Of a DNA stretch of 34,447 nucleotides, positions 1,303-30,306 are shown one piece after another. Positions within the stretch are counted from its first letter, which is position 1, and each line of letters begins with the position of its first letter. The position numbers and the translations under genes are program-made. The stretch lies in the IMG/VR virus record IMGVR_UViG_3300017989_000273, positions 1 through 34,447 of that record. One strand, written 5' to 3'. The notes under the pieces were generated by a model. It saw only the letters and a program-made list of their open reading frames with translations, ran no database searches and had not been told where the DNA came from. The DNA comes from a virus.

Positions 1303-1929
1303 ATGGTATTAACTATGACAGCAGATAACAGCGCTTCTTGTTTTAGTACAAAGGTCTTATATCGATGGTATAAAACACACGTACCGGAAGAATTAGGTGA
1401 TAAAAATTTTTTATCTAGTATAGAAAATATACCTTTAACTTACCTTCTTGACGATAAGAACTGGGTATCTATTGATGTATGGTCTACACTTTTGCATAAT
1501 ATACAGACAACTATTCATAACACTACAGGAGACACCAAGACAGCATATCAATTAGGTTATGAAACAACTATAGAAGCCCGATCTTTAGATCAATTAGCCT
1601 ATTTACTGATAACGCCTTTAAATAGTATTATTGCAACGTTATCTGTCCATATTTTACGTAATATTAACTCTAATTTACTAATACAACTTCGCGGTCGACA
1701 TAAACATGGAATTACTTTGGAGCAAACACCTCTAAGAAAAGAATGGTATAACAATGATGTATGTGCGTTTAATAGAGGTTCGATGCATGCAATTTTAGAT
1801 ATGCGTGGATATACTGATGTGTGTTTAGAAGAGCATACTTGTGCAGCACATAAAGGTGATAGTTGTACTTTTGAGGCTACGTGGACTAACAGAAGTATTA
1901 TTAAAGCGCTAAAATTTTTAACTAAATAG
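1303..1929 (+). CDS. Stand-alone V4R-like sensory-domain protein
   Basis: The 208-residue protein matches the pattern of an N-terminal sensory domain found in bacterial adenylate cyclases and histidine kinases and related to the V4R (4-vinyl reductase) fold. Residues 47-56 (YLLDDKNWVS) resemble the conserved YLxDxxNWVS start. Residues 157-194 carry the typical end: NRGSMHAI, GY, then cysteines C174, C180 and C188 in a CxxHKGDSCxFEATW arrangement. In bacteria this domain is attached to a catalytic output domain, but here the protein ends straight after it. It may bind a small ligand or dimerise with a host protein. It follows queC by 46 bases. GAGGAG lies about 16 bases before the ATG, a little far, and ATG at 1315 is an alternative. 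The family call is from remembered patterns and is moderate. Confidence 0.6.
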   Translation: MVLTMTADNSASCFSTKVLYRWYKTHVPEELGDKNFLSSIENIPLTYLLDDKNWVSIDVWSTLLHNIQTTIHNTTGDTKTAYQLGYETTIEARSLDQLAYLLITPLNSIIATLSVHILRNINSNLLIQLRGRHKHGITLEQTPLRKEWYNNDVCAFNRGSMHAILDMRGYTDVCLEEHTCAAHKGDSCTFEATWTNRSIIKALKFLTK

Positions 1930-1940
1930 GAGATATGGCT

Positions 1941-2123
1941 ATGTTAAATATGAATCAGTTACAACAGTTAAAGGATGCATCGCACTTAATAGAAGGTCTT
2001 GTCAAAGATTCTAGTATTTACGCTAAAGGCGAAGGTAAAGAGAAAAAAACCCTACATAGAGTAGCTCTTAATTTGAGATGGTTAATTGCACAACAGCGAA
2101 TTAAGCAAATAAAAAGCAAATAA
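1941..2123 (+). CDS. Small basic helical protein, unknown
   Basis: I chose ATG at 1941 rather than the in-frame ATG at 1935 because AGGAG at 1928-1932 sits 8 bases from 1941 but only 2 bases from 1935. The 60-residue product is lysine- and leucine-rich and likely all-helical (LNMNQLQQLKDASHLIEGL near the start, ending in IKQIKSK). No family is recognised. It lies between the sensory-domain gene (11-base gap) and the next gene (2-base gap), so it belongs to the same operon. Confidence 0.65.
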   Translation: MLNMNQLQQLKDASHLIEGLVKDSSIYAKGEGKEKKTLHRVALNLRWLIAQQRIKQIKSK

Positions 2124-2125
2124 AA

Positions 2126-2797
2126 ATGTTACATATGTCACCGCAGCATTGGCTGGATAATATTCCTGATACAATACGTACTTCTTTCGGTAAATGGTAT
2201 AGAGATAATGATGGGCCTGTTAGCTATTATTGGCTTCTAATGCAGATGTTTCGTGCGATAAAAGAAGAACCTATAAGCTGGCTCTATATGCAAAAACTAC
2301 TCAAGGATGTAGGAAATATTGAGGATATTAAACAAGCAATTGATTTTTCTTCTAGTATACCCGATGAAGAGTTCGCTGCATTAAATCAATTAGAAAAGCA
2401 CGAACAATATAAAGAAGATACAATACGTGAAGAGGTAGAAGAGGTAGGTAGCTCTAAGATACTTAAAGCTGCTATGAATACGTTGCATACATCGAAATTT
2501 AAGATATTTTTAGCACATATTTTTGGTAAGAAAGATACGATTGTTCTTGATCATTATATAGTAACTACGCATGAATGGAAAGGTAAGATTTACTTAACCG
2601 ATTATAGCGTTTGTGCAAATGATGCTGAACCAGCTACGTGTCTACATATTATTTCGGAATTTTCTGCCCGTGAAAATCGCTATATTTATCATACGTCTTG
2701 TGGTACAGAATTTGCAGTAGTTACTAAAATATCAGAAGAAAAATTATTTAAATACTGTTCATACTGTGGTAAACACCTTAAATTTTTAGAAGATTGA
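2126..2797 (+). CDS. Unknown protein with C-terminal zinc-ribbon-like cysteines
   Basis: The 223-residue protein has a tryptophan- and tyrosine-rich helical N-terminus, an acidic middle (about 85-110), and a C-terminal part with C192 in HTSCGTEF and C211-x2-C214 in KYCSYCGKHL. This pattern suggests a zinc-binding ribbon. There is no clear ribosome binding site for ATG 2126, and ATG 2135 (residue 4) is an alternative, so translation may be coupled to the gene ending 2 bases upstream. The function is unknown. The same frame stays open for a further 201 bases after the TGA. Confidence 0.65.
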   Translation: MLHMSPQHWLDNIPDTIRTSFGKWYRDNDGPVSYYWLLMQMFRAIKEEPISWLYMQKLLKDVGNIEDIKQAIDFSSSIPDEEFAALNQLEKHEQYKEDTIREEVEEVGSSKILKAAMNTLHTSKFKIFLAHIFGKKDTIVLDHYIVTTHEWKGKIYLTDYSVCANDAEPATCLHIISEFSARENRYIYHTSCGTEFAVVTKISEEKLFKYCSYCGKHLKFLED

Positions 2798-3067
2798 GAG
2801 ATATTTATTCATTCACAGCCCGTAGAGATACGCTGCTTGGCTTTTGAGCACGCTATATTAAAAAACGCCGCAATAGATCATATCATACGCAGAGGAAATG
2901 AGAATCTATTTATGCTACGCATATTCGAATGTGATAATCGAGTACAAATCAATGTTTATAGTCAAATAGGCGATCTATTCTTGGTATATTTTATCGATTA
3001 GCCTGCCTTTATACGTTATTATAGTATTTTACTATTATTTACAAGCCCAGAAGGGCAGGAGATAACT
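2798..3067 (+). other. Gap before the next small gene, with an open frame and promoter-like bases
   Basis: The reading frame of the preceding gene stays open after its TGA to a TAG at 2999-3001 and would encode about 67 residues. The only usual start inside it that leaves a useful length is TTG at 2837, which has no good ribosome binding site. Just downstream, 3017-3036 reads ATTATAGTATTTTACTATT, which resembles the -10 region of the promoter candidate near 11640. I see no RNA gene or strong hairpin here. Confidence 0.3.
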
Positions 3068-3250: not shown

Positions 3251-5101
3251 ATGAGTCTTAAACAAAATCTATTAAACGCAACTAACAAAGTACTCTTTCA
3301 ATTATTCAATCTTGATTCTTTACCTTCAGCAGATGGTAAACGTATAACTAAGCCTAGTGATATGGCAGCAGCAATAGATAATGCTATTAGTTCTCTGGGT
3401 ACGAATAACTATATGTTCAATGCTTTAGATTGTTATCTAAAGTCAGAATCCGAAAGACAGCGCTGCTATAAAGAGTATGATACTATGGATGATGCTTCTG
3501 ATGTTATTTCTACTGGTTTAGACATATACGCAGAAGATGCCACAGATTTTGATACTTTTATTAATTCTCGCGTTTGGATTACAGCTAATGATAGTGCAAT
3601 AGCTACGGAAACTAATGAGTGGTTAAAAGCTATTAAGTTAGAAAAAAATCTACCTAAGATAGCTAGAAATTTAGCTAAATACGGTGACTTCTTTTTAAAT
3701 CTACAATATGAAAAAGAAGAAAAAAATACTAATAATAGGCGCAATCAAACAACGCGTCAAATGTCTAGTGAGATTGTACGTATTGATACATCATACTATC
3801 CAGGTGATGTTATGCCTATAGTAAAAAATTATCATTTATTAGGCTTTTTTGTTAGTGATCAAGAAAAAGCACGTAAAGCAACATCTAATAATTTATATGC
3901 ACCTTGGGAATTTATTCACTTTGCTATTCCAGGTGATTCTAATTTTATGCGTTATAATAATACTTCTACAATGACACAACGCGAAAGAGAAAATCAGGTT
4001 GAATACGGACAATCTCTTTTACGCGCTGCTAGAAGACCTTATAAAAGATCAAGTTTAATGCATGATATTTTAGCTATAGCTAGGATGACACGATCACCTT
4101 TACGTAGAATTTTTAAGTTTATGACTGAGACAGATAATCCGACTAAAGCTATTACTGACTTGGCTGTATTTAAAAAAGTCATGGAGAAAATTGGTGGTGT
4201 AGATAAAGCTAGTGAAGATATGTCTTATTCAGAACTTATGAATGTAATGACTAATGATGTTTATCTCCCTATTCTAAAAGATGCTAAAGGTGATTATTCT
4301 TTTGAAACAGTCGGTGGTGATGTTGACGTATCTAATATAGTTGATATAGAGATGTGGGATAATCGTTTATTCATGGCTTTACGTATTCCTAAAGAATATA
4401 TGAATTTTAGTGAAGCTATGGGTGATAGATCTACGCTTTTATTAAAAGATATTCGTTATGCTAAGCGTATTAAAAAGTTACAAAGTGCTATTAAAGAAGG
4501 CATAAGAGAATTAGTTTTTATTTACTGGGCACTTAAGGGTAAGACATTAACGGAGCACGATTTTGATGTTAATATGGCTTCTACCTCTATTTCAGAAGAT
4601 TTAGAACGTTTAGATTATTTCGGCAATGCTATATCTACAGCAGACGCTTTAACACGTATGCTTGAAAGTTTTGGTGAAGATGATGAAGGAGCCGAGGATG
4701 ATGAATCGCCGGCTGCACAAAAGAAACCTATAGACAAAGGTTATCTTGTATACTATATCTTGAAAAATATAGTTAAACTACCTGAATTTGATATTGTTAC
4801 TTTTTTTCCTGGAGCTCAGAAGTATATAGATAAAGAAGAAGAGCTTTCAAAAGAAGAAAAAAATAAGAAGCGTTCTACTGAAGAATTGGTAGAAAACAAT
4901 AAAAAATTTATACAGAAAAAATTTAATGAAAAGTTTGGTCAAGATTTAAAAGAAGCTGCAGAAGCTTTAAACGCTAATCTGATAAAAGAATACAGAAAAG
5001 AAAATCCTAAGTTAGAGAAATTCGATTATTCTAACTTATTAGAGTATTGTAATTCTGTCGTTTTAAAAGCATCCAGAAAAACAAAGAGAGGTGCTAAATG
5101 A
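3251..5101 (+). CDS. Portal vertex protein, T4 gp20-like
   Basis: The portal is the ring of twelve subunits at one capsid vertex through which DNA is pumped. This 616-residue protein has the size and features of gp20-type portals: an N-terminal region with YKEYDTMDDASDVISTGLDIYAED-type residues near 75-95, an RIDTSYYPGD segment, WEFIHFAIPGD, a stretch with SLLRAARRPYKR and LMHDILAIARMTRSP (about 250-285), and RIPKEYMNFSEAMGDRS in the crown-proximal part. The C-terminal third is acidic and lysine-rich and may be disordered. GGAG lies 8 bases before the ATG. Its stop overlaps the next gene by 4 bases (ATGA), giving translational coupling. Confidence 0.85.
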   Translation: MSLKQNLLNATNKVLFQLFNLDSLPSADGKRITKPSDMAAAIDNAISSLGTNNYMFNALDCYLKSESERQRCYKEYDTMDDASDVISTGLDIYAEDATDFDTFINSRVWITANDSAIATETNEWLKAIKLEKNLPKIARNLAKYGDFFLNLQYEKEEKNTNNRRNQTTRQMSSEIVRIDTSYYPGDVMPIVKNYHLLGFFVSDQEKARKATSNNLYAPWEFIHFAIPGDSNFMRYNNTSTMTQRERENQVEYGQSLLRAARRPYKRSSLMHDILAIARMTRSPLRRIFKFMTETDNPTKAITDLAVFKKVMEKIGGVDKASEDMSYSELMNVMTNDVYLPILKDAKGDYSFETVGGDVDVSNIVDIEMWDNRLFMALRIPKEYMNFSEAMGDRSTLLLKDIRYAKRIKKLQSAIKEGIRELVFIYWALKGKTLTEHDFDVNMASTSISEDLERLDYFGNAISTADALTRMLESFGEDDEGAEDDESPAAQKKPIDKGYLVYYILKNIVKLPEFDIVTFFPGAQKYIDKEEELSKEEKNKKRSTEELVENNKKFIQKKFNEKFGQDLKEAAEALNANLIKEYRKENPKLEKFDYSNLLEYCNSVVLKASRKTKRGAK

Positions 5102-7276: not shown

Positions 7277-7561
7277 ATGCACAAGTTAAAAGAATTATTA
7301 GGTGAGATAGGTGAAGCAGAAAAAATGAATTATTCTGATCTTACTAATAAACAATTAGAAGTATTAAAATTGTTTGATATAAAAGAAAATCATATAAAAG
7401 GTATCACTAGTTCGGCTGTAAGTATTATGATTACTGTTGCTCATCCGCGTTTAGTTTTAAGTGGTTTAGATTTAAAAAAGATATCACAGCATCCATTATT
7501 TAGAGCTATAATGCCTGGTACCGGTAACAAAGAATTTACACTAGGAGTACGTAATGAATAA
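7277..7561 (+). CDS. Small head-associated protein with capsid-targeting-like N-terminus
   Basis: The 94-residue protein starts MHKLKELLGEIGEAEK, a good example of the shared cassette: an amphipathic Lys/Leu helix followed by IGE|A, which fits the (I/L)xE|A cut site known for T4 gp21 protease. The rest (DLTNKQLEVLKLFDIKENHIKG and a hydrophobic middle) has no recognised fold. AGAGG lies about 10 bases upstream of the ATG. It overlaps the next gene by 8 bases. Packing inside the prohead is inferred from the N-terminus and the head-gene context. Confidence 0.7.
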   Translation: MHKLKELLGEIGEAEKMNYSDLTNKQLEVLKLFDIKENHIKGITSSAVSIMITVAHPRLVLSGLDLKKISQHPLFRAIMPGTGNKEFTLGVRNE

Positions 7562-8182: not shown

Positions 8183-9637
8183 ATGTTAGGAAGTATTAAA
8201 CAAGGGGGGCGCGTAAAGTATGCAGGTGTTCCGCCCAAAAAGTTGTATCAATTTCTTGATACAAAGGGCGACGGTACTGGTATTAAAAACGCTAATGATG
8301 ATTATAGTAGCAATGCCACTAAATTTTTCATAGAGCCAGCAGGTAATAACGGCGATATAAATACTATTGCTGAAACATATACGATACAAGAACTCGTTAT
8401 AATGATATATGATCAGGATGCTACATTGGCTGATAAATATGGTCAGGCTGGTCAATTGGCTAATGGTATTACGATACAAAAAGTTGATGCTAATGATGTT
8501 GTTATAGAAGATTATACCGCAGCTTTGCCTATTGTACGCACAGGGCAATACGCACAATTAGGTAAACTAAATGGTACAGCGGGTACTAATTATGATATGA
8601 TGCAAGTAGTTATTGATCTTGCAAAATTAAATTCAGGCGGTGCAACAGGTTGTCATTTATCAGGTATTGCAGGGGAGAAATTAGTTATTACTTTATCTGA
8701 TAATTTTACTGCCCTAGAAGAACACTTATTTATTGCACGAGGTGAATACTTAGCTGAAGGTAGTTTTGTTGTAGCAGTAACTACATCTAGCACATCTAGT
8801 AGTTCAACTTCTAGTTCGAGTACCTTAAGTAGTTCAAGTACAAGTAGCTCAACAAGTTCAAGTACAAGTACCTTATCTAGTAGCTCGACATCTAGCAGCA
8901 GTTCAAGTACCTTATCTAGTAGCTCAACAAGTAGCAGTAGTTCAAGTACAAGTAGTTCAACGTCCAGTAGCAGTAGTTCAAGTACAAGCAGCTCAACATC
9001 TAGCTCAACCAGTTCTTCAAGTACGAGTAGCAGTAGTTCAAGTACAAGCAGCTCAACATCTAGCTCAACCAGTTCTTCAAGTACGAGTTCTAGCTCAAGC
9101 TCGACATCTAGTAGCTCCAGTTCAAGCTCGACCAGTTCAAGCTCTAGTACCTTATCGAGTACAAGTTCTAGCTCAAGTACTTTATCAACTTCGAGTACCT
9201 TATCGAGTACAAGTTCTAGCTCAAGTACTTTATCAACTTCGAGTACGCTATCAACATCTAGTTCAACTAGTTCTAGCTCAAGTACTTTATCAAGCTCAAG
9301 TACAAGTAGCTCAACAAGTTCAAGTACAAGTACTTTATCAAGTTCAAGTACAAGTTCTACGACTTCTAGTAGCTCAACAAGTTCAAGTACAAGTTCTACG
9401 ACTTCTAGTAGCTCAACAAGTTCAAGTACAAGTTCTACGACTTCTAGTAGCTCAACAAGTTCTACAACTTCAAGCAGCTCAAGTACATTATCGAGTACTT
9501 CAAGTAGCTCCAGTACGTCATCCAGTTCCAGTAGCTCCAGTTCAAGCTCTACAAGCTCAACTCTAAGTAGTTCGAGTACAAGTACTTCAACATCTAGCTC
9601 TAGTTCAACTTCGAGTACTACAACAGTTGCACCTTGA
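8183..9637 (+). CDS. Virion-type protein with a long mucin-like Ser/Thr tail
   Basis: The 484-residue protein has two parts. Residues 1 to about 197 form a beta-rich globular domain (YQFLDTKGDGTGIKNA, FFIEPAGNNGD, ITIQKVDANDVVIEDY) that resembles capsid- or tail-associated domains of phages. Residues from about 200 to 479 consist almost only of Ser and Thr with occasional Leu, followed by TTTVAP. Serine is encoded by all six codons in mixed order, which suggests that selection acts on the protein and not just on a DNA repeat. A displayed fibre or decoration protein with an extended, possibly glycosylated stalk is likely. AAAGGA lies before the ATG. Confidence 0.8.
   Translation: MLGSIKQGGRVKYAGVPPKKLYQFLDTKGDGTGIKNANDDYSSNATKFFIEPAGNNGDINTIAETYTIQELVIMIYDQDATLADKYGQAGQLANGITIQKVDANDVVIEDYTAALPIVRTGQYAQLGKLNGTAGTNYDMMQVVIDLAKLNSGGATGCHLSGIAGEKLVITLSDNFTALEEHLFIARGEYLAEGSFVVAVTTSSTSSSSTSSSSTLSSSSTSSSTSSSTSTLSSSSTSSSSSSTLSSSSTSSSSSSTSSSTSSSSSSSTSSSTSSSTSSSSTSSSSSSTSSSTSSSTSSSSTSSSSSSTSSSSSSSSTSSSSSTLSSTSSSSSTLSTSSTLSSTSSSSSTLSTSSTLSTSSSTSSSSSTLSSSSTSSSTSSSTSTLSSSSTSSTTSSSSTSSSTSSTTSSSSTSSSTSSTTSSSSTSSTTSSSSSTLSSTSSSSSTSSSSSSSSSSSTSSTLSSSSTSTSTSSSSSTSSTTTVAP
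8785..9628 (+). repeat. Low-complexity Ser/Thr-coding repeat tract
   Basis: The tract is built of short words such as agtagctcaaca, ttcaagtaca and tctagt. Longer exact units are also visible: a 60-base period spanning about 8967-9086 (two copies), a 48-base period around 9148-9245 (two copies), and a 39-base period around 9340-9460 (about three copies). These show recent tandem copying inside the coding sequence. All periods are multiples of 3, so the frame is kept. Confidence 0.85.
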
Positions 9638-9646
9638 GGACTATAG

Positions 9647-9901
9647 ATGAAAAAGTTAAAAGAAACTATTAAATACCTCGATGAAGCAAAAGCTAAGTCG
9701 AGGTATTTCAATGTAGATTATAAAGATACTACTGATGGTGATTTACCTGTTGTAGATGTTAAAATTTCCTTAAAAAGACCCTTAAACATCTCTATACCAG
9801 GTGAATCAAAAGATTTAAGTAGAGATATTCAACGTAAGATTAATCGTTTAGATGATCACATAGAAGATCTTATAGCAGTATTATCGGAGGATACAAAATG
9901 A
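9647..9901 (+). CDS. Small head-associated protein with capsid-targeting-like N-terminus
   Basis: The 84-residue protein starts MKKLKETIKYLDEAKAKS, a clear member of the shared cassette with LDE|A as the likely protease site. The rest has a short beta segment (DLPVVDVKISLKRPLNI) and a helical acidic end (RKINRLDDHIEDLIAVL). GAGG lies 7 bases before the ATG, and the gene overlaps the next by 4 bases. Prohead packing is inferred. The mature function is unknown. Confidence 0.7.
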   Translation: MKKLKETIKYLDEAKAKSRYFNVDYKDTTDGDLPVVDVKISLKRPLNISIPGESKDLSRDIQRKINRLDDHIEDLIAVLSEDTK

Positions 9902-10239
9902 AGACATTAAAAGAATTAGTTGAACAGGCTCAAATGCTTCTAGGTTATTTTTACGATGATGAAGGTAATCTGTATACATATGATGATTTTGCTTCAATTG
10001 AAGAACGCTTGGTACGTACAAGAGTTGTTAGAAAAGGTCGTAGAGTTATTAAATGGAAAACTGATAGACCTGGTTATAAAGTAGCGTTTGTTAGTGGTCG
10101 ACCTAAAGAAGTACGTATTAAACCTGCTGAACGTATAAAAAGAAAAAAAGGACAAAAGGCAGGTAAAAGAAAAAGAGTAGCAAAGAAGAGTCAAGCAGCT
10201 ATTCGTAGAAAAAGATCACTAAGACTTGTCAGAAGATAA
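9898..10239 (+). CDS. Basic internal-type protein, paralogue of the gene at 29709
   Basis: The 113-residue protein has a cassette-like start (MKTLKELVEQAQMLLG), then VVRKGRRVIKWKT, RPGYKVAF, GRPKEVRIKPAE and a tail of about 45 residues that is mostly Lys, Arg and Ala. Residues from 36 on line up with residues 14-94 of the protein encoded at 29709 (VVRRGKLIWKT, KPGFKIVF, GKPIEVRVTPAE). The tail would bind DNA, so a histone-like or internal head protein is plausible. CGGAGG precedes the ATG by 7 bases. It overlaps the previous gene by 4 bases. Confidence 0.75.
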   Translation: MKTLKELVEQAQMLLGYFYDDEGNLYTYDDFASIEERLVRTRVVRKGRRVIKWKTDRPGYKVAFVSGRPKEVRIKPAERIKRKKGQKAGKRKRVAKKSQAAIRRKRSLRLVRR

Positions 10240-24935: not shown

Positions 24936-25160
24936 ATTCCTCCTACAAAAAGTAATAATATTTATTATCCATAATAAACATTTCAAGTTTTAGACAGTTC
25001 TACCCCCTAACAGTAATAACTGCGCATATACGCAAAGTATTCCCTATTTAAACGCAGAATATCAAGTGTCTAGACCGGTATTCCAACGGTTTATATTTAT
25101 TTATGATTAAACAGCAGGCAAAACCAGCTGATTTTTAACATTTAACAAGGTTTTACGTAT
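24936..25160 (+). other. Leader region of the protease-scaffold gene
   Basis: The 225 bases hold no gene. There are small inverted repeats (TGCG-CATATA-CGCA near 25021 and CAGC/GCTG near 25112) and AT-rich words such as CTATTTAAAC (25046) and TTATATTTATTTATG (25091) that could be late-promoter-like. None is a clear match to the T4 late sequence TATAAATA. Confidence 0.4.
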
Positions 25161-26492
25161 ATGCAAGAGTTGAAAGAACGTTTTGATGGTTTGAACATTA
25201 TCACAGAGCGAACAGCTAACGGCAAGACTATCTATAAGTTTAGAGGACCATTTCAGGAAATGAATGATATCCGTAATAATAAGAATCGTAACGGACGTGT
25301 CTATACGAGAAAGCTTTGGGAAAAAGTCTTGCAAGATGAAAACGTGCTTGAACGCTTAAATTCAAAGCGTATGCTTGGAGAATTGGATCATCCGACAGAT
25401 GATGGCCAGATTCGTAGAACAAGTCATATTGTTACTAAGATAAAACCAAATTATAACGAAGGTATTATATACGGAGAGTTGGAACTTCTAAATCATGATC
25501 AGGGTGATGCTGCTTTATTACGCGCATTAGTCGATCAAGGAGTACAGCTTTGTGTTAGTAGTAGAGCCTATGGAGACTTTTTGGAAGACGGACGCACTAT
25601 TGATCCAGATACTTTTAAGTTGACTACATGGGACGTTGTTTTAGATCCTTCTGTATCTATCGCGCAATTGAACAAGGTTTCCGAATCTGTCAATAAAGCT
25701 TTAGACGGAGAATCAAGAGCACGGAGCAATTTCGTTGAACGTACATCATTCAGCGAAAAATTAAAAGATGAACAATTAAATGAACATAAGTCTGGAGGAC
25801 TAACAATGGACGAATTAAAAAAATTGATGACTGAGAACAAAGAATTAGCAGTAGCTAATGGTATTCATGAGACAAATATTGGACACATGAAAACTTTACT
25901 TGATGAAAAGAATAAAGCTCTTGAGACCACTGAATCTGCATTAAGCGAAAATAAAGAAAAATTGGAAACTTTAAGCGCAGACGCTGAAAAATCTGCTGAT
26001 CTTTTAGAAAAAGCTACAGCTGAAAATAAAGAGCTAAAAGAAAAGAATGAAGCTCTTGAAGCAAAACTTAAAGAATACGAAGAGATTGAAGAGCAAGCAG
26101 TTGAAGCTATTGAAACTCTTAAAGAAGAAAAAGAAGAGCTAGTAGCTAAAGTTGAAGAGCAGGAAAAGCTTGGTGAAGAAGCGGCTGAAGTAATCAATAA
26201 TCTAGTTGATAAAAAAGACGAGTCTAAAAAAGATGAATCTTCAGAGAAAAAAGATGAATCTAAGAAAGACGAATCTGAAGAGAAAAAAGACGAGTCTAAA
26301 AAAGAAGCTGATATGGATAAGGGCGACGAAGAAAAGTCTGACGAGAAAAAAGAAGCAGATATGAATAAAGATGACGATGACGAAGAAGACGACGAAGAAA
26401 AGTCTGACGAGAAAAAAGAAGCAGCTCATCGTGAAGACATCTCAGCTAGAATGTTTGAAGCAGTTGCAGGAAAGAAATACGAAAAGAAATAA
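25161..26492 (+). CDS. Prohead protease fused to scaffold region (T4 gp21/gp22-like)
   Basis: The protein has 443 residues. Residues 1 to about 175 are an S80-family prohead protease like T4 gp21: NRNGRVYTRKLW (42-53), MLGELDHP with the likely catalytic His77, and SSRAYG (133-138) with the likely catalytic Ser. The protease cuts the scaffold and other head proteins during maturation. Residues from about 216 on form a long charged coiled coil and then repeats of the type KKDESKKDES rich in Asp, Glu and Lys (about 350-425), as expected for a prohead scaffold. The ribosome binding site of the whole gene is weak (AAGG, 10 bases upstream), while an internal in-frame ATG has a strong one. The first residues (MQELKERFDGLNIITE) also resemble the shared cassette. 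Confidence 0.88.
   Translation: MQELKERFDGLNIITERTANGKTIYKFRGPFQEMNDIRNNKNRNGRVYTRKLWEKVLQDENVLERLNSKRMLGELDHPTDDGQIRRTSHIVTKIKPNYNEGIIYGELELLNHDQGDAALLRALVDQGVQLCVSSRAYGDFLEDGRTIDPDTFKLTTWDVVLDPSVSIAQLNKVSESVNKALDGESRARSNFVERTSFSEKLKDEQLNEHKSGGLTMDELKKLMTENKELAVANGIHETNIGHMKTLLDEKNKALETTESALSENKEKLETLSADAEKSADLLEKATAENKELKEKNEALEAKLKEYEEIEEQAVEAIETLKEEKEELVAKVEEQEKLGEEAAEVINNLVDKKDESKKDESSEKKDESKKDESEEKKDESKKEADMDKGDEEKSDEKKEADMNKDDDDEEDDEEKSDEKKEAAHREDISARMFEAVAGKKYEKK
25806..26492 (+). CDS. Nested scaffold protein (internal start)
   Basis: ATG 25806 is in frame with the protease gene (its residue 216) and has GGAGG at 25794-25798, 7 bases upstream. This is better than the signal at 25161. 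It would yield a 228-residue scaffold (MDELKKLMTENKELAVANG, coiled coil, acidic/lysine-rich tail, ending EDISARMFEAVAGKKYEKK) without the protease. Phage lambda makes Nu3 scaffold from inside gene C in this way. More scaffold than protease would be produced, which fits their needed ratio. The site is seen in the sequence; its use is inferred. Confidence 0.7.
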   Translation: MDELKKLMTENKELAVANGIHETNIGHMKTLLDEKNKALETTESALSENKEKLETLSADAEKSADLLEKATAENKELKEKNEALEAKLKEYEEIEEQAVEAIETLKEEKEELVAKVEEQEKLGEEAAEVINNLVDKKDESKKDESSEKKDESKKDESEEKKDESKKEADMDKGDEEKSDEKKEADMNKDDDDEEDDEEKSDEKKEAAHREDISARMFEAVAGKKYEKK

Positions 26493-26599: not shown

Positions 26600-28051
26600 A
26601 TGTTAACAGAAGACAAAGTTTATGGAAACGCTCAGGTCGTAGAAGGCCTTAGAGTAGCAGAAAGAAGTGATGAGCTTGGTGGATACGCCAAAAGAGCCAT
26701 TGATATGTATGAACAGATGAATGGTAAACAACCTAACGTTATGTGGAGATCCGCTCTCGGACACATACTTGAAAATTTCAATACTTTTCAACAGAGTTTA
26801 CAGGAAACTGTTACACAAGCCTCAATGCCTTTCCTTCAAGATTACGGTTTTGAATTAATTATCGCTTTAATGCCAGGTCTTATTGCTGATAGAGTATTCC
26901 AGACACAACCTGCGAAATACAAAAACTATTCAGTATTTTACCAAAATTATCAGTATGGAAATACTAAGGGTACAACTACTGCAAACGATAATGCAATTAC
27001 TTCTCTTACAGCCGATGCTATCAATGATGACTATACTAAAGATTCAGAAGTAGACAAAACTATCGGTACAGGTGATGGTGCTACAGCTGCTTATTCAGTA
27101 TTAGCAGGCGTTCTTTATGTTCCTGTTGTTGCAAGTTCTGTTGCTATTTCTTCTACAGATGTTGGTGACAATGCAATGGCTGTTGTTGATGATGGCGCAG
27201 GCGCTTTAACTGGCGATGTTGCTGCTCCTGGAACTATTAACTATACAACTGGTGCACTTTCTTTTACATTTAATGCAAATGTAAAAGATGGAACAGCTGT
27301 TCTTCTTACTTACGAATATGTAGGTGAAGGATCAACTACTAATGCAATGCAGTACAATATGGTTATCAGTGAGAAGACTGGTCAGGCAAAAGAAAGACGT
27401 TTACGTTACAATTTCTCAATTGAATCACAATTCTCTTACAGACAACAGTTCGGTCGTTCAATGGACGGGGATTTGTTAGCCGCTTCTATTATGGAAATAA
27501 GGAAAGAGATTGATCAAGATCTTATTCTTTATGGAAATACAGTAGCCGCAACAACAACTGGTGCTAATGCATCTGCTGGAACAGTTACATGGGACAGAAC
27601 ACCAGATACAGGCGTTCAGTATTTCTTCTGGAGAGAACAGTTTATCGATACCCTTATAGAAGCTGGAAACCTTATAGTAAAAGCAACTGGTTTAGGCCAG
27701 GGTAATGTTGCCGTTGGCGGTATTACATTTAAGAACGTAGTTGAAACTATTGGACCACGTTTTAAATCAGCTAATACTTCACAGGTTAAAGGTTCAAGAT
27801 TCATCGGTACAATTGATGGTAACATTGATTGTTTTTACGAACCAGCTATGGCTGATGCTAAGTTCTTCGTAACATATAAGAGCGATAATCCATTAGAAGT
27901 AGGTATTGCTTACAATCCATGGATGCCTCTATATGCTTCAGATCCACATATGCTTGATAATGGTAAGCTTCACAGATACTTGATTACATCTTCTGGAAAG
28001 CTTCTTATTAATCCTAAGTTGTATGTTGGTGGAACTATAACTACGTCATAA
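26600..28051 (+). CDS. Major capsid protein, T4 gp23-like, with an inserted beta domain
   Basis: The 483-residue protein builds the capsid shell (HK97 fold). Gp23-type features are WRSALGHILENFNTFQQ (49-65), SMPFLQDYGFELIIALMPGL (75-94), VFQTQPAKYKNYSVFYQNYQYG (99-120), AKERRLRYNFSIESQ (about 263-277) and FVTYKSDNPLEVGIAYNPWMPLY near the end. Residues about 152-241 (KTIGTGDGATAAYSVLAG to YEYVGEG) are an extra GDG-TGTINYTTGALSFTF type beta domain, a module seen in many phage surface proteins, probably displayed on the capsid. Codon use favours C-ending codons more than neighbouring genes, as for highly expressed genes. The ribosome binding site is AAAGAG. A terminator follows the gene. Confidence 0.9.
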   Translation: MLTEDKVYGNAQVVEGLRVAERSDELGGYAKRAIDMYEQMNGKQPNVMWRSALGHILENFNTFQQSLQETVTQASMPFLQDYGFELIIALMPGLIADRVFQTQPAKYKNYSVFYQNYQYGNTKGTTTANDNAITSLTADAINDDYTKDSEVDKTIGTGDGATAAYSVLAGVLYVPVVASSVAISSTDVGDNAMAVVDDGAGALTGDVAAPGTINYTTGALSFTFNANVKDGTAVLLTYEYVGEGSTTNAMQYNMVISEKTGQAKERRLRYNFSIESQFSYRQQFGRSMDGDLLAASIMEIRKEIDQDLILYGNTVAATTTGANASAGTVTWDRTPDTGVQYFFWREQFIDTLIEAGNLIVKATGLGQGNVAVGGITFKNVVETIGPRFKSANTSQVKGSRFIGTIDGNIDCFYEPAMADAKFFVTYKSDNPLEVGIAYNPWMPLYASDPHMLDNGKLHRYLITSSGKLLINPKLYVGGTITTS

Positions 28052-29708: not shown

Positions 29709-30260
29709 ATGTATAAATTAGAAGCACTTTTAGAAGAAATCTTATCTGAGAAAATTAAACGTAAGAAAGTAGTTCGGCGAGGCAAACTTATATGGAAGAC
29801 TTTTACAACTAAACCAGGTTTTAAAATTGTTTTTAAAGGTGGTAAACCTATTGAAGTAAGGGTGACACCTGCAGAGGCTAAAAAGATGCGTAAAGCAGCT
29901 AAAAGAGCCGCCCGTACTGGTAGACATAGTAGAGGAGCAGCAGCTAGGCAGATGAAAAAATCTTTACTGAAAATAAGTAAAAAAGGTCAAAAGCAAACAG
30001 ATACTGATGATCTTATACCGACAGAAACTTTAGGAGAAAATACAATGAAGAATTTAAAAGAAACTTTAAGCAAAGTAGATGAAGCAAGAAAACCTAGAAC
30101 CGTCGATCAACTTATTCGCATGTTAGTCGATGAAGGTTTCGATACAGATGATGCTATAGAATTTGTCTTTGATTCTTTGAGTAATGCAACTAAGAAGAAG
30201 GTAATAGATGATGCTATGGTTGAGTTTGATAAATGGAAGAAGAGCATCAGCGGCGATTAA
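29709..30260 (+). CDS. Basic internal-type protein with a nested second gene
   Basis: The 183-residue protein starts MYKLEALLEEILSEKIKRKK, a cassette-like helix with a possible ILSE site. Residues 18-95 are the basic domain shared with the protein at 9898 (VVRRGKLIWKT, KPGFKIVF, GKPIEVRVTPAE, then Lys/Arg/Ala-rich). Residues 113-183 start MKNLKETLSKVDEARKPR, a complete second cassette with a VDE|A site, then an acidic helical domain (IRMLVDEGFDTDDAIEF). The start of the long form has a weak ribosome binding site (GAAGAAAA). The fusion probably arose by loss of a stop codon between two cassette genes. Confidence 0.75.
   Translation: MYKLEALLEEILSEKIKRKKVVRRGKLIWKTFTTKPGFKIVFKGGKPIEVRVTPAEAKKMRKAAKRAARTGRHSRGAAARQMKKSLLKISKKGQKQTDTDDLIPTETLGENTMKNLKETLSKVDEARKPRTVDQLIRMLVDEGFDTDDAIEFVFDSLSNATKKKVIDDAMVEFDKWKKSISGD
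30045..30260 (+). CDS. Nested short form with its own ribosome binding site
   Basis: ATG 30045 is residue 113 of the 183-residue frame. AGGAG at 30032-30036 lies 8 bases upstream. The 71-residue product would begin with the capsid-targeting-like cassette at its proper N-terminal place. The arrangement suggests that it is translated on its own, in addition to or instead of being the tail of the longer protein. Confidence 0.6.
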   Translation: MKNLKETLSKVDEARKPRTVDQLIRMLVDEGFDTDDAIEFVFDSLSNATKKKVIDDAMVEFDKWKKSISGD

Positions 30261-30272
30261 TAGGAGAATGTA

Positions 30273-30306
30273 ATGAAAAATTTAAAAGAAGCACTTCAAA
30301 GAGTTT
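30273..30306 (+). repeat. 34-base exact repeat (copy 1 of 2): gene-start cassette
   Basis: The first 34 bases of this gene, encoding MKNLKEALQRV and the first base of the next codon, are identical to 30479-30512. The sequences differ before and after, apart from single-base matches. This indicates recent copying of only the targeting cassette. Confidence 0.9.

Follow-up and report, generated by a model that had tools for sequence, protein, structure and literature searches.

A putative scaffold start nested in frame within a T4 gp21-type prohead protease gene of a virus fragment and its fused relatives

The locus described here raises the question of whether a single open frame joining a prohead protease to a putative scaffold is read as one protein or, through a second start inside the frame, as two. 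The window, that is, the whole stretch of DNA analysed, is a virus record of 34,447 bases and a linear fragment, and in it the frame at 25161-26492 is open for 443 amino acids (50.7 kDa); its translation runs from a T4 gp21-type prohead protease into an acidic coiled coil. An earlier note on this DNA had placed a scaffold start inside the protease frame, a proposal that the comparison with fused and split relatives supports. The frame, its parts and the head genes considered with it are the following.

25161..26492, plus strand: full-length frame, prohead protease and putative scaffold (PHROG 207, head maturation protease, 2.4e-30)
25206..25685, plus strand: S77 (T4 gp21-type) protease domain, residues 16-175 (Pfam S77, 5JBL profile, model)
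25806..26492, plus strand: putative scaffold part (gp22-like), 228 aa, 26.1 kDa (role suggested by split relatives)
26600..28051, plus strand: major capsid protein of the T4 gp23 type, downstream neighbour (Pfam Gp23, 3e-22)
3251..5101, plus strand: portal of the T4 gp20 type (Pfam Portal_T4, 1.3e-36)

Residues 39-175 match Pfam Peptidase_S77 (PF03420) with 42.6 bits against a cut-off of 27 (E 6e-11), and a profile of relatives picked out a single relative with a solved structure, T4 gp21 (5JBL; 3.3e-20). Accordingly, the S80 label that had been given to the protease is not supported, and an identity as Peptidase S80 (phiKZ gp175) was rejected, S77 alone lying above the Pfam threshold; a Pfam search found no S49/ClpP-type protease match in the frame. 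An AlphaFold model of the fusion was built with 44 sequences, in which the protease is confident at about residues 16-175 (pLDDT about 95), and a Foldseek search with this model likewise ranked T4 gp21 (5JBL) first (E 2.7e-7, target TM 0.74). Weaker matches included, among others, the pseudorabies, Epstein-Barr, varicella-zoster and cytomegalovirus proteases; herpes proteases account for 5 of the 12 best fold matches, with probabilities of 0.23-0.97 and low TM, and they match the model weakly (E 6e-3, target TM about 0.3). H77 and S133 are invariant in 44 relatives, as are S88 and H89, and these residues are candidates for the catalytic His and Ser.

In T4, portal and protease genes are near neighbours, whereas in the window about 20 kb separate the protease from the portal upstream of it. 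The spacing is alike in the closest relative, L001, a 141.8-kb contig with a protease 66% identical to that of the window, where the portal occupies 65813-67564 and the protease lies near 87.7 kb. The roughly 20 kb between the two genes in the window (5101-25161) are filled with small genes, including an amidase and a transglycosylase. Elsewhere in the window, 558-1256 encodes QueC (7-cyano-7-deazaguanine synthase; Pfam 4e-61), possibly serving modified DNA bases or queuosine, and the gene at 8183-9637 carries a run of about 270 residues composed nearly entirely of Ser, Thr and Leu, with the opposite strand open too.

In the AlphaFold model the protease is followed by a linker that is disordered at 176-190, forms a low-confidence helix at 186-211 and breaks at 212-215, and then by a single helix of 141 residues (216-356, pLDDT mostly 93-97), of which Met216 is the first residue. 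The part from Met216 onward contains a long coiled coil, has a pI of 4.5 and 54% charged residues, and lacks Cys and Trp. No profile in PHROG or NCBIfam was useful for naming it; its position between the protease and the capsid gene, its composition, the synteny and the split relatives suggest that it acts as a scaffold. The codon of Met216 is also the proposed scaffold start, and the signals at the two starts of the frame are these.

25147..25150, plus strand: weak main-start Shine-Dalgarno (SD) AAGG, spacer 10 (duplex energy -3.8 kcal/mol)
25794..25798, plus strand: internal SD GGAGG, spacer 7 (sequence; -9.3 kcal/mol)
25806..25808, plus strand: internal ATG, Met216 (codon 216, in frame), proposed scaffold start (SD, conservation, helix start)

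The GGAGG seven bases before ATG 25806 and the mere AAGG at the main start, both pointed out earlier, are indeed present in the sequence. SD strength was taken as the duplex energy with the anti-SD, and the in-frame internal ATG, GTG and TTG codons of the 52 window genes were scored. By this measure none of the 236 in-frame internal start codons has a stronger SD than ATG 25806 (-9.3 kcal/mol), which is level with the five strongest of the 52 gene starts; the median gene start scores -5.85 and the main start of the fusion -3.8. When synonymous codons were resampled in the window alone with the protein held fixed, the SD was not unusual (p = 0.58), a result that is uninformative because Gly-Gly codons always give GGNGG; the evidence for the internal start is consequently comparative and not local. 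RNA structure at the main and internal starts showed nothing beyond shuffles.

For the comparison, 198 loci with the protease and an anchor motif were surveyed. In 139 of them the frame ends 12-72 aa past the anchor, and in these roughly 140 relatives protease and scaffold are separate genes, as in T4; in 53 others, 45 of them distinct, the frame is fused and runs 217-610 aa past the anchor. A fusion produced by assembly error or a lost stop was rejected, because the fusion recurs in L001 and in dozens more distinct loci. Within a preset junction, 10-60 codons past the anchor, 25 of the 56 in-frame ATGs of the 45 distinct fused loci have an SD of -7 kcal or lower; for the ATGs in the rest of these frames the figure is 6/336 (Fisher 1e-18, a value that, like the other p-values, overstates independence because the loci are related). 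Among loci fetched later, which added 14 distinct fused ones, 5/9 junction ATGs reach -5.5 kcal or lower as against 13/95 (p 0.007), and 4 further loci carry an SD-preceded ATG at +71 to +93, at the end of a longer linker and opening the coil. The preset limits of +10 to +60 had missed such long-linker relatives, and the widening to +100, which gives a 91-codon junction, was made post hoc; with it, 43 of 58 distinct fused loci have a junction ATG with an SD of -5.5 kcal or lower, compared with 5/58 and 10/58 for control stretches of equal length in the scaffold and the protease, respectively (Wilcoxon about 1e-9 against the junction). Synonymous resampling combined across 37 loci gave p 2e-4, and in 26/33 fused relatives even the best SD that could be assigned to the main start is weaker than the internal one. 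The A4 scan gave known loci only.

L001 is likewise fused and has an AGGAGG with a spacer of 5 before an ATG at 3643. The residues encoded over the SD differ, being SGGLT-M in the window and IQEDS-M in L001, as does the codon phase of the SD, and the scaffold parts align Met to Met with 38% identity over 151 columns. Loss of the SD and ATG in close fused relatives had been named beforehand as evidence against the internal start, and what was found is that L001 and most distant relatives keep both, the junction SD recurring with different residues and spacings. Cultured phages also belong here, namely Escherichia phages IME392 and EP_H11, Acinetobacter phage Ab1-TPeters and the Rhizobium phages RHph_TM, which like the window have a fused gene with a junction ATG and SD but differ from it in a protease only about 30% identical and a shorter linker; in each of them the fused gene is annotated as one protein.

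A good junction SD is lacking in 15/58 fused relatives. Two of these loci (L038 and L173) have no junction ATG and each carries an SD-preceded GTG instead, several others (L138, L187, L192 and L198 among them) have a weak junction SD, and a group of gut and jumbo phages (L007, L136, L141, L246 and L266) mostly has a conserved Met at the coil start and no SD, perhaps since their hosts do not rely on it. The coil-start Met of this last group often opens M(D/E)NGQ. The predicted nested start is thus the norm in a large phage clan with gp21-type proteases and not peculiar to one genome.

The split relatives allow the internal Met to be compared with the start of a separate gene. Vibrio phages 150E35-1, 1.031.O and Va2 are members of the fused clan (150E35-1 and Va2 by their place in the tree) but are split, with a stop after the protease and, 20-40 bases on, a separate coiled-coil gene preceded by AGGAG or AGAGG and opened by ATG. 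Aligned with IME392, Ab1-TPeters and RHph_TM61, these Vibrio scaffolds have their N-termini at the internal Met, which is codon 204 in IME392; by this alignment, the internal Met of a fused frame sits where the separate scaffold gene begins. The tree calls for four or more switches between the fused and the split layout, whichever way each of them went. Three Vibrio phage loci (L162 at 1553-2983, L163 at 1595-3013 and L166 at 1607-3061) have an extra domain of about 290 residues at the protease N-terminus.

Taken together, the sequence comparison makes it highly likely, in our judgment, that one frame gives two 3' co-terminal products, few copies of the fusion and many of the scaffold alone. 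We infer from it the use of ATG 25806 in the cell, the ratio of the products, the targeting of the protease and its cleavage, in the following manner. From the weakly signalled ATG 25161 ribosomes would make few copies of the protease-scaffold fusion, and initiation at ATG 25806, with its strong SD, would yield a surplus of free scaffold, so that a weak outer and a strong inner start would set a protease:scaffold ratio like that of T4, whose core holds about 576-580 scaffold and 55-100 protease molecules (PMC5694885, PMC9958956). The C-terminal coiled coil, common to both products, would allow the few fusions to enter the assembling core of the prohead together with the far more numerous scaffolds and so bring the protease there; once the shell has closed, the protease would cut itself loose at an (L/I/V)-x-E site that follows its domain, and would go on to degrade the scaffold. 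The candidate sites for such processing are listed below.

25206..25208, plus strand: candidate N-terminal self-cleavage site IIT-E16, fitting the gp21 motif (L/I)-x-E
25683..25685, plus strand: candidate C-terminal self-cleavage site V-S-E175, before S; motif kept in relatives
25782..25784, plus strand: second candidate linker cleavage site L-N-E208, before H; motif match

In P2 gpO-like arrangements the scaffold is released from a single fusion by self-cleavage, and a similar reading of the present locus, which we hold to be unlikely, is that only the fusion is made, the scaffold being freed by self-cleavage in the linker and the SD and ATG being a relic of the start that the scaffold gene once had. 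E16 is nearly invariant in 44 relatives, (L/I)-x-E being the cleavage motif of gp21 (PMC9026906). The pattern [LIVM]xE occurs at the offset of E175 in 40/45 fused relatives, which, together with the fused relatives that lack a good internal start, would suit a single product. The motif is, however, as common in split relatives (126/139), and for that reason it is not a mark of fusion and was rejected as such; since C-terminal processing of gp21 has also been described (PMC9026906), the site after the protease is probably inherited and did not evolve for the fusion. Moreover, a relic would be expected to decay, whereas the SD and ATG persist at about 30% identity with the residues and the codon phase changed, and an output of 1:1 would yield as much protease as scaffold.

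A translational pause, in which the SD-like motif would hold the ribosomes back and give the protease time to fold ahead of synthesis of the coil, the ATG being incidental, appears more improbable still. The motif does lie at the border of two folded domains, but it goes together with in-frame ATGs that are spaced as at a start (25/56, against 3/95 of the out-of-frame junction ATGs at the same -7 kcal limit), 56/58 fused loci have an ATG at the junction, and in the split relatives a separate gene does begin at this Met. The least credible reading is that Gly/Glu/Lys-rich linkers and coils yield GGAGG-like strings which a Met follows by accident, as the resampling of the window (p 0.58) and the high background in GC-rich relatives would allow, but as neither the coiled-coil stretches of equal length (5/58 against 43/58 at the junction) nor the other internal ATGs of the window, never as strong, would lead one to expect.

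Apart from this locus, the window contains a second probable nested in-frame start, at 29709-30260, where AGGAG with a spacer of 8 precedes ATG 30045; no nested start like it was found in L001. The sequence read from this ATG starts with MKNLKETLSKVDEARK, which nearly matches the beginning of the two genes that follow (at 30273 and 30479: MKNLKEALQRV), and the upstream half of 29709-30260 resembles the gene at 9898-10239. An N-terminal M-K-x-L-K-E followed by an x-x-E site occurs at 7277, 7554, 9647, 9898, 29709, 30045, 30273 and 30479, and also at 25161, in genes that are otherwise unrelated; the DNA pattern of the tag is found 12 times in the window, with 0.9 expected, and 3 times in L001. 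The capsid-targeting sequences of T4 are about 10 residues long and are cut by gp21 after Glu, and by analogy the tagged genes may encode internal head proteins.

Nested protease and scaffold genes were known before, with lambda-type and Mu-type proteases and in herpesviruses; here a nested layout is predicted with a T4 gp21-type protease, to which the herpes enzyme is similar in fold, and in the literature searched, which left out most subscription journals, no description of a nested or fused S77 protease-scaffold was found. Cultured members of the large clan infect E. coli, Acinetobacter and Rhizobium, and these fused phages together with the split Vibrio relatives make the question testable. 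A nested gene would be a simple genetic setting for both the protease:scaffold ratio and the entry of the protease into the prohead. T4 itself resembles the window in its protease family and its gp20- and gp23-type genes, and its (L/I)-x-E specificity and excess of scaffold are what is predicted for the window, but it differs in that gp21 and gp22 are separate genes, as the earlier note had stated; a stop and a start lie between them. The internal start of T4 gp21 at Met45 leads to a shorter protease and not to a scaffold (PMC9026906), and another alternate start is annotated in the same gene.

As for lambda, with which the locus had been compared, the likeness in nesting holds, but the nearest precedent is found in herpes UL26/UL26.5, which is closer in having a protease of similar fold. 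The lambda C protease is of the ClpP/S49 type, unrelated to the gp21 type, and descent from lambda C/Nu3 was ruled out, there being no ClpP/S49 match and the fold being that of gp21. In lambda the scaffold Nu3 is nested in the protease gene C (Shaw and Murialdo 1980, cited in PMC8508860), and lambda and Mu both encode protease and scaffold in one gene (PMC8508860). Mu I/Z and Mu-like phages of Pseudomonas have an in-frame scaffold start in the protease gene with an SD before it (PMC4378225), although Mu I/Z differs from the window in protease type and head module and has no gp20 and gp23 neighbours. In the herpesviruses, UL26/UL26.5 (UL80/UL80.5 in HCMV) encodes protease and scaffold in one frame, and UL26.5 gives the scaffold alone from a mid-frame start, 3' co-terminal and in large excess (PMC12474303); the herpes protease and T4 gp21 have elements of their fold and catalytic residues in common (PMC5694885). 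That a single ancestral nested arrangement underlies both the gp21-type clan and the herpesviruses, the separate genes 21 and 22 of T4 being derived, seems to us a slender prospect. UL26/UL26.5 has the nested layout proposed for the window and a protease similar in fold to gp21, but belongs to a eukaryotic virus in which the short product has its own gene and no Shine-Dalgarno site.
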